Shown: one piece after another, positions 10,928 through 11,924 of the stretch
Numbering within the stretch: the first letter of the stretch is position 1
How the letters are laid out: each line of letters opens with the position of its first letter
NCBI GenBank assembly: GCA_017547845.1
Contig: JAFYNZ010000055.1
Location: 42,776-106,775, forward strand
Direction of reading: 5' to 3'
DNA from: Muribaculaceae bacterium
Lineage (GTDB): Bacteria > Bacteroidota > Bacteroidia > Bacteroidales > Muribaculaceae
Length of the DNA: 64,000 nucleotides
Made by a program: the position numbers and the translations under genes
Notes under the pieces: generated by a model
Told to the model about the DNA's origin: nothing
What the model saw: the letters and a program-made list of their open reading frames with translations, nothing else
Database searches by the model: none

Positions 10928-11721
10928 GCACCCACATGGCTGCGACTAACTAGCGCCTCTATAGCGCTAAAGTCGCAGACGTTGTTTCAATCCACGCACC
11001 CGCACGGGGTGCGACTGAAGCTGTTCTTGCAAAAATACCACCGTTTCACGTTTCAATCCACGCACCCGCATGGGGTGCGACTCTTTACAAAAAAAGTGTA
11101 AAAGACACTATAGAAGTTTCAATCCACGCACCCACACGGGGTGCGACTCGGCGGTGCCAAACGCGTCCGGAATATAATTCTCGTTTCAATCCACGCACTC
11201 ACACGGGGTGCGACAACGACCGAAAAAGAGTTCCAAACTAATCGCAAGTTTCAATCCACGCACCCACACGGGGTGCGACCCACATACTCCTCTGCAGTAT
11301 CAAGAAGATGCTGTTTCAATCCACGCACCCGCATGGGGTGCGACCGAAGCCTGATGTGTCAAACTCTTGTGTATCGTTGTTTCAATCCACGCACCCGCAT
11401 GGGGTGCGACGTTCGACGAGGTAACCGACACAACAACATACACCGTTTCAATCCACGCACTCGCATGGGGTGCGACGCGAACAACTATGTTATTCCACTT
11501 GTGTAGGCTGTTTCAATCCACGCACCCGCATGGGGTGCGACTGAGTTTAACAACCTTGTAATAGGTTGTGTTGTCGTTTCAATCCACGCACCCGCATGGG
11601 GTGCGACGCCAAGCTCGCAAGGATGCAGTTGACTTTGTTTTGTTTCAATCCACGCACCCACACGGGGTGCGACTGCGTTGCCGGTTACTACTTGCATATC
11701 TTCGCTGTTTCAATCCACGCA
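10928..11721 (-). CRISPR. Type I-C CRISPR array: 11 full repeats, a half repeat at the cas side, a decayed repeat at the far end
   Basis: Full 32-base repeats start at 10984, 11050, 11116, 11183, 11248, 11313, 11379, 11445, 11510, 11576 and 11642. Spacers are 33-35 bases. On the plus strand each repeat begins GTTTCAATCCACGCAC and ends GGGGTGCGAC; read on the minus strand it ends in TGGATTGAAAC, the I-C crRNA tag, so transcription runs leftward like the cas genes. The palindrome CGCACCC/GGGTGCG encloses a five-base loop that varies. At the cas side the last repeat is cut after 15 bases (11707-11721) where it joins cas4. At the other end 10928-10946 is a decayed repeat (GCACCCACATGGCTGCGAC) followed by a 37-base spacer-like unit, as expected for the oldest, leader-distal end. 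No leader remains. Confidence 0.97.
10940..10978 (-). repeat. Long hairpin at the distal end of the CRISPR array
   Basis: CTGCGACT (10940-10947) pairs with AGTCGCAG (10971-10978); inside it TAGCGC (10951-10956) pairs with GCGCTA (10964-10969). The structure spans the end of the decayed repeat and the last spacer-like unit. It could end or stabilise the pre-crRNA; there is no T-run after it on the minus strand. Confidence 0.6.
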
Positions 11722-11924
11722 ATGCTGACTGAGCGCAGGGTAATAGTATCACCATTCTTTTGTCGATACGAGGGGTTATCTACATTGGTGTGAAGTAGAC
11801 GGCCTTCCGTTGTGAGTCGATTTTCGTCCCACTGCTGATCAATATGAATGAGTGCCCATTGTCGGGGACAAAACAGGAAGTGTTGTATCCCCGACAGCAT
11901 GAGCATATCCTCTTCTTTGTACAT
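11722..11924 (-). pseudogene. cas4: cas4 remnant fused to the CRISPR array
   Basis: The start of a type I-C Cas4 is clear: [20 protein letters not shown] and then RQWALIHIDQQWDENRLTTE, with one of the iron-sulphur Cys residues. After about 67 codons the sequence switches directly into a CRISPR half repeat; the open frame reads on as [10 protein letters not shown], which is repeat and spacer, and stops at 11688. All RecB-nuclease motifs and the C-terminal Cys cluster, which lie further on in normal Cas4 (about 200 residues), are absent, so no nuclease activity is possible. The start codon overlaps the cas7 stop (TAATG), the normal operon link. Missing from the locus along with the rest of cas4 are cas1, cas2 and the leader, which in type I-C lie between cas4 and the array. 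Confidence 0.93.

Follow-up and report, generated by a model that had tools for sequence, protein, structure and literature searches.

The stretch of DNA analysed here, called the window throughout (64,000 nucleotides of a Muribaculaceae bacterium; GenBank assembly GCA_017547845.1, contig JAFYNZ010000055.1, forward-strand positions 42,776 to 106,775), carries on its minus strand a type I-C CRISPR (clustered regularly interspaced short palindromic repeats) locus in which the beginning of cas4 continues directly as the end of a CRISPR repeat (Table 1). Subtype I-C is defined by its effector genes and usually has a cas4-cas1-cas2 block and a leader. Judged by its effectors, gene order and repeat type, the window locus is of subtype I-C: cas5c, cas8c and cas7 match NCBIfam models over nearly their full length, cas3 is recognised at full length via its HD and helicase-core models, and cas5c, cas7/csd2 and cas3 stand in I-C order and score above the cut-offs of TIGR01876, TIGR02589 and TIGR01587. 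The effector genes, described as intact in an original prediction made from the sequence alone, are thus full length. The usual cas4-cas1-cas2 block is not there: cas4 is reduced to a remnant of 67 codons, no leader-sized gap precedes the array, and model and query searches found no cas1 or cas2 within the I-C locus. As in type I loci regarded as adaptation-deficient, effectors and array are present with no cas1-cas2 nearby.

The junction has the structure that the original prediction gave it, with cas4 stopping after about 67 codons and continuing as a repeat end. The open reading frame (ORF) from 11924 to 11688 (minus strand, 78 residues) encodes 69 cas4-like residues, followed by WIETAKICK and a stop. 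Bases 11924-11722 are cas4 (67 codons and two nucleotides) and do not fit the repeat, the TGCG at 11721-11718 is compatible with the repeat as well as with the frame of cas4, and 11717-11707 (TGGATTGAAAC) is the end of the repeat. The complete 15-mer of repeat sequence (TGCGTGGATTGAAAC) has 12 copies in the window, all exact and all in the array, in a count that tolerated up to one mismatch; 0.02 copies are expected from shuffled sequences. The partial copy lies 65 nucleotides from the next one and is in register with the array, which has a period of 65-67 nucleotides. The cas4 fragment is recognised by TIGR00372 (E 8e-5; 22.5 bits, below the whole-protein cut-off of 65 of that model) and by Pfam Cas_Cas4 (E 8e-5; 23.2 bits, slightly above the cut-off of 22.7).

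Table 1. Features of the I-C locus in the window (feature, position in the window, strand, basis)
cas3 (715 aa, HD + helicase)	15217..17364	-	TIGR01587 E 8e-44 (Cas3 core), TIGR01596 E 3e-22
cas5c/cas5d (232 aa)	14499..15197	-	TIGR01876 E 6e-74
cas8c/csd1 (571 aa)	12787..14502	-	TIGR01863 E 6e-140; 467 bits, cut-off 218.65
cas7/csd2 (282 aa)	11924..12772	-	TIGR02589 E 3e-119; 1-nt overlap with cas4 start
5' remnant of cas4 (67 codons + 2 nt)	11722..11924	-	Cas4 models; likeness to L085 cas4
junction overlap TGCG, compatible with repeat and cas4 frame	11718..11721	-	sequence, comparison with L085
3' 15 nt of I-C repeat (4 nt stem edge + complete 11-nt handle TGGATTGAAAC)	11707..11721	-	15/15 match, in register
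hybrid ORF cas4'-repeat-spacer (78 aa), pseudogene	11688..11924	-	translation
first remaining spacer (33 nt), behind hairpin-less repeat	11674..11706	-	
CRISPR array: 11 full 32-nt repeats + 10 further spacers	10984..11673	-	

Intact relatives show what is missing. In 58 complete loci, from the same genus and from other Bacteroidales, cas7 is followed by cas4, cas1 and cas2, then by a gap (the leader) of 155-567 nucleotides (median 169) and then by the array. The locus closest to the window on a tree of effector sequences (L085, 77% identity) allows a direct alignment: the window cas4 is 80% identical in DNA to L085 cas4 up to position +199, 7 bases before the 15-nucleotide repeat piece, and the window then matches the L085 repeat from +206. 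The protein encoded by the remnant is 86% identical to residues 3-74 of L085 Cas4. In L085, about 1.95 kb lie between the two matching parts. The window lacks about this much or more between the cas4 break and a repeat, which is explained by a single deletion, as originally predicted. Such an illegitimate deletion would have removed most of cas4, cas1, cas2, the leader and the leader-side edge of the array, and would have been sealed at an overlap of at most four nucleotides (TGCG) that codons 68-69 of cas4 share with the 3' stem edge of the repeat. The newest repeats were presumably lost with it, in a number that is not readable from the sequence. We consider it likely (probability about 0.8) that a working I-C locus became frozen through an illegitimate deletion, with adaptation lost and interference probably kept.

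The window genome is a draft of 2.32 Mb in 69 contigs (89.8% complete), and CRISPR arrays are hard to assemble; the join could in principle be an assembly artefact, with cas4 and a repeat misjoined at a place to which an intact module belongs. This is very unlikely: no more than four nucleotides are common to the two sides, far below the overlap that an assembler uses, and the join lies inside a contig that measures at least 106 kb. Searches of the assembly also speak against it: a full-length cas4 query matched only the remnant, a DNA query covering the cas4 remnant and nearly the whole array found no second matching place, and there was no I-C cas1 (the leader could not be sought). A query with I-C cas2 gave no match either, in a search that had no positive control. 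The sole Cas1 found in this genome is of another kind: ORFs for a Cas1 (298 residues) and, beside it, a Cas2 (110 residues) are present on contig C25, and type II models give the highest scores for both. The original proposal, that the rest of cas4, cas1, cas2 and the leader are missing from this place, is supported. Deletions of the same class, discussed below, are furthermore present in two of nine isolates (L089 and L118), neither of them a cas4-to-repeat join.

What remains of the array are 11 full 32-nucleotide repeats and 11 spacers, including the first one behind the junction. The two most common repeat forms (8 of the 11 full repeats) fold into a hairpin of 7 bp (z about -2). The repeat at the junction retains the complete 11-nucleotide handle and forms no such hairpin (z -0.08), which also rules out that the junction created a special hairpin of its own. 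A candidate replacement hairpin in another broken locus (L056) was no better than shuffled sequences (z 0.70). Cleavage of I-C repeats by Cas5d leaves an 11-nucleotide 5' handle (PMC5965380), and the discussion of PMC8406640 names the hairpin as the structure recognised by Cas5d in I-C. As the junction repeat has the handle but lacks the hairpin, Cas5c would find no hairpin upstream of the first spacer, which probably gives no proper CRISPR RNA (crRNA). Repeats preceding spacers 4 and 8 carry a mismatch in the stem. Counting the partial copy, 5 of the 12 repeat copies are identical to the consensus.

With the leader and its promoter gone, transcription would have to start from the cas operon, and the array would now be transcribed as the tail of this operon, on the same strand. 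The Bacteroides-type promoter motif TAnnTTyG does not occur on the minus strand between 11601 and 12900. Cas5c would still process the array and Cascade-Cas3 would still attack the targets of spacers between full repeats. When cas4 or cas1/2 is removed from the I-C system of Xanthomonas, crRNA processing and interference stay unchanged (PMC8406640), and it is therefore plausible that interference is kept in the window. The original prediction that the old immunity is kept may hold for at most 10 of the 11 spacers, the first one following a hairpin-less repeat, provided that transcription from the cas operon reaches the array. No new spacers could be added, so that the memory would be frozen and could only wear or shrink.

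Three further observations concern the array. Its repeat variants do not form one series but alternate along 10984-11673 (loop GTGTG, ATGCG, GTGTG, ATGCG), which suggests past recombination between arrays. A worn repeat-like remnant lies at about 10915-10946, 37-38 nucleotides past the last full repeat, and the old array end may have been one unit longer. Positions 6932-7225 of MT836291.1, a human faecal record named 'Bacteriophage sp.', match the window array at 14 places and are probably an array of similar I-C-type repeats.

To place the deletion among its relatives, I-C loci were surveyed: the best 80 of 183 matching cas7 stretches in species-representative genomes (not a random sample) and 16 regions from the genus of the window, of which four that duplicated loci of the first set were left out. 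Of the resulting 93 loci, window included, eight are cut by contig ends and 85 are evaluable: 62 have complete cas4-cas1-cas2 and 23 are broken by a mechanical rule. Two of the 23 were set aside, L125 (cas4 is split by an insertion and cas1-cas2 are present) and L128 (from another phylum and without cas3). Adaptation genes are thus wholly or partly lost in 21 of 85 evaluable loci, namely in the window, in L034 and in 19 of the 73 evaluable loci of the 80-locus set; within the genus of the window, the fraction is 4 of 16 evaluable loci, window included. Within the 80-locus set, such deletions are found in 2 of 9 isolates (L089, L118) and in 17 of 64 other records (p 1.0), and the class is therefore not a metagenome artefact.

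The scars are diverse. Cas4 joins or nearly joins the array in the window, L056 and L065, it joins cas2 in L034 (in frame after 27 residues), L066 and L078, it is followed by a cas1 fragment in L119 and L101, and a cas4 fragment lies near worn repeats in L123. Cas7 is followed by a cas1 fragment in L118, by a leader-length stretch in L059 and by a repeat handle within 50 nucleotides in L076, L077, L094, L095 and L105. Only cas1 is lost in L089, where cas2 also has an in-frame stop. The remaining scars involve a RhuM-like gene that reads into cas2 or stops close to the leader or array (L054, L058, L061) or is whole and followed by the tail of cas2 (L055). Seven of these loci (L056, L065, L076, L077, L094, L095, L105) resemble the window in that the array follows cas4 or cas7 almost immediately, leaving no space for a leader, but have other break points and belong to other lineages.

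Two of the fusions are open frames. In L034 (5001-5366), a single ORF of 121 residues joins 27 residues of cas4 in frame to almost the whole of cas2, and is followed by about 220 nucleotides and then three repeats; in L054 (about 10852-11299) the start of RhuM and the end of cas2 share one open frame. Of the 93 loci, 15 have a nearly full-length gene of the RhuM family downstream of cas7 within the I-C operon: it lies between cas7 and cas4 or its remains in L055, L056, L060, L063, L064, L066, L067, L070, L073, L075, L085, L087, L090 and L109, and also in L127. The L056 copy, the only one scanned, matches PF13310 (E 3e-107). A literature search found no paper on RhuM together with CRISPR and type I-C.

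A sample of 393 genomes of the order, which contains the genome of the window by construction, gives a fairer rate. I-C cas7 (at least 56% identity) is present in 16 genomes and I-C cas1 in 14 of these; the two without are the window genome and G501, that is, 1 of the 15 others drawn, below the published 13%. G501 has a second, partial cas7 at another contig edge, and a second I-C locus is possible. All 14 I-C cas1 hits are on contigs that also bear cas7 and, likewise, all 13 cas1-positive genomes of the window's genus (E at most 1e-40) also have cas7; an adaptation block without effectors was seen neither in the order sample nor in the genus genomes.

When 21 genomes with broken loci (those of 20 named loci, including L128, and G001) were searched for Cas1 of any type, 16 had none, two had only their own Cas1 fragment (G125, G128) and three had a further Cas1 (G001, G127 and G130, the genome of L128); many of these genomes are drafts, and absence of Cas1 is no proof. 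These numbers, together with the variation of the repeats along the window array, make it highly improbable that adaptation continues in trans, with the type II Cas1-Cas2 of contig C25 feeding the window array. Both proteins are encoded in the window genome, and trans acquisition has been reported for a VI-B system that uses II-C (PMC8092290; the types are named in PMC12814883 and PMC10367356).

The window cas7 is nearest to rumen/Prevotella-type records (up to 85% identity in the best segment, against up to 74% in its own genus), which suggests horizontal transfer of the locus. For the losses themselves, a tree was constructed from cas5, cas8 and cas7 with a quick method (83 rows; L066 and L105 are not on it, as their contigs lack the effector part). 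The 20 broken rows on the tree, L128 among them, need 20 changes, and well-supported branches force at least 18; without L128, the 19 broken rows need 19 changes. With L128 discounted, adaptation was lost at least 17 separate times, a recurrence that the original prediction did not notice. Excess scatter of the broken loci over the tips was rejected: 20 changes are the maximum, but 10% of 20,000 label shuffles also reach it, and we therefore claim separate origins and not short-lived lineages.

If adaptation is dead, arrays are expected to lose spacers and their repeats should no longer be renewed. Array statistics were restricted to arrays that end inside the available DNA, with partial junction repeats counted; one complete row (L127) is not from Bacteroidota. 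Broken loci have a median of 8 repeats per array (20 arrays) and complete loci a median of 21 (29 arrays; p 1e-5), and the fraction of repeats that exactly match the consensus is 0.54 in broken and 0.94 in complete loci (p 0.001). The length difference is weaker when cut arrays are included (p 0.024) and stays in independent pairs from the tree (7.8 versus 1.0 of 13, median p 0.039). Broken loci that kept the leader also have short arrays (11 arrays, median 7, p 0.0006), indicating that the arrays were not only trimmed by the deletion, and the exact fraction differs in this subset too (p 0.02); the group that lost the leader has nine rows, of which L123, with Ns in its DNA, is doubtful. Recording thus seems to have stopped in the broken loci.

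The effectors are better maintained than the adaptation genes. Among evaluable loci with enough DNA, none of 79 cas5 and none of 80 cas8 genes is short by coverage, and cas3 is short in 2 of 64 loci (L118 and L128). In L118 (Parabacteroides massiliensis SN4), cas3 is missing from its usual place, and downstream of the array the opposite strand has an ORF that resembles cas3. There are finer lesions: cas8 has an in-frame stop in L059 and is split in L023, cas3 is split in L123, and in L126 the hits to both cas3 and cas8 are split. Loss of adaptation (21/85) is more frequent than even generously counted cas8 lesions (3/80, p 0.0001); cas7 was the bait of the survey, so that deletions into cas7 are invisible. 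The ratio of non-synonymous to synonymous changes (N/S) was compared in hand-picked triples, with some near relatives used twice: for 16 of the 21 broken branches it is 773/3223 (0.240), against 844/3273 (0.258) in the chosen near relatives (p 0.20), and 12 intact control triples gave 519/2110 (0.246) and 418/1876 (0.223). There is no overall relaxed selection on the broken branches in this test. The test is coarse: divergence at synonymous sites is high, and the greater part of each branch may be older than the deletion.

Several results weigh against a frozen locus that still interferes. The window branch has a higher N/S than L085 (73/192 versus 48/206; Fisher p 0.022, uncorrected and one of 16 triples), and selection on the window's own effectors could be relaxed. 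No convincing protospacer for the window spacers was found among 50,697 phage records, and four of the 11 spacers have no exact 22-nucleotide match in IMG/VR. Three of the five repeat forms were folded, and the third of them lacks the 7-bp hairpin. Repeat wear is less clear than array length: mean repeat identity does not differ significantly in the subset with leader (p 0.09), and in the independent tree pairs wear has the same direction without reaching significance (6.8 versus 1.2, median p 0.11). Finally, as the genome is an 89.8% complete draft, it could have an I-C cas1 elsewhere.

Some of these points fit a decay of the whole locus, in which the deletion was a stage of neutral loss and the effector has fallen out of use despite its intact-looking genes: the N/S of 0.38 on the window branch against 0.23 for L085, the 5 of 12 consensus-exact repeat copies, the lost leader and the spacers without targets. 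We regard such decay as rather unlikely, because all four effector genes of the window are open and the broken branches are not relaxed across the 16 triples (0.240 versus 0.258). Moreover, the only effector lesions among the 20 broken tree rows are the cas8 stop of L059 and the split cas3 of L123, besides the absence of cas3 from its usual place in L118 and L128; by the same tests, the other broken rows show none, though cas3 is cut by the end of the contig or region in some. A deletion that took adaptation and left interference remains our preferred reading of the window.

For the Bacteroidales as a whole, a further reading is less likely than not: loss of I-C adaptation would be a recurrent and perhaps favoured state and not random decay. 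Selection might keep killing and memory and repeatedly drop the recorder, in some lineages the deletion would also make the array the 3' end of the cas operon, and frozen loci would persist for some time, with shrinking arrays and wearing repeats, before they vanish. CRISPR is usually treated as one package, but recording can go without loss of killing. At least 17 separate losses with readable scars, many with an intact near relative, make the rate of memory wear measurable once recording has stopped, and the same set can show whether losing the recorder is an advantage, for instance because the cell is spared self-targeting spacers. Leader-less loci predict expression of the array from the cas promoter.

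Compared with canonical subtype I-C (cas3-cas5c-cas8c-cas7-cas4-cas1-cas2), the window shares effectors, gene order, repeat type and the side of the array, but adaptation genes and leader are deleted and the array directly borders what is left of cas4. Zhang and Ye 2017 (PMC5294841, section 11) counted 263 loci without cas1-cas2 among 2001 of type I; 87 of the 263 have an adjacent array, and the pair is remote in 36 of these and missing from the whole genome in 51. Within these classes the window belongs to those with a remote pair, its remote pair being of type II; the section counts presence and absence, and deletion scars, independence on a tree and ageing of arrays are not in it. Missing Cas1-Cas2 has been named as a possible cause of short arrays (PMC12814883). 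Among the titles and abstract starts covered by our literature search, which left out most subscription papers, none showed cas4-repeat fusion scars or repeated I-C loss in Bacteroidales. The I-E loci of Streptomycetaceae without cas1-cas2 (PMC8730458) are like the window in that interference genes and array are kept and the usual adaptation genes are missing; unlike there, the window data suggest no replacement for adaptation. The I-C mutants of Xanthomonas oryzae (PMC8406640) had cas4 or cas1/2 removed in the laboratory and kept interference and crRNA maturation; those deletions are engineered, while the one in the window is natural and also takes the leader. Type I loci without cas1-cas2 were thus already known, and recurrent scars and ageing arrays are what is added here.
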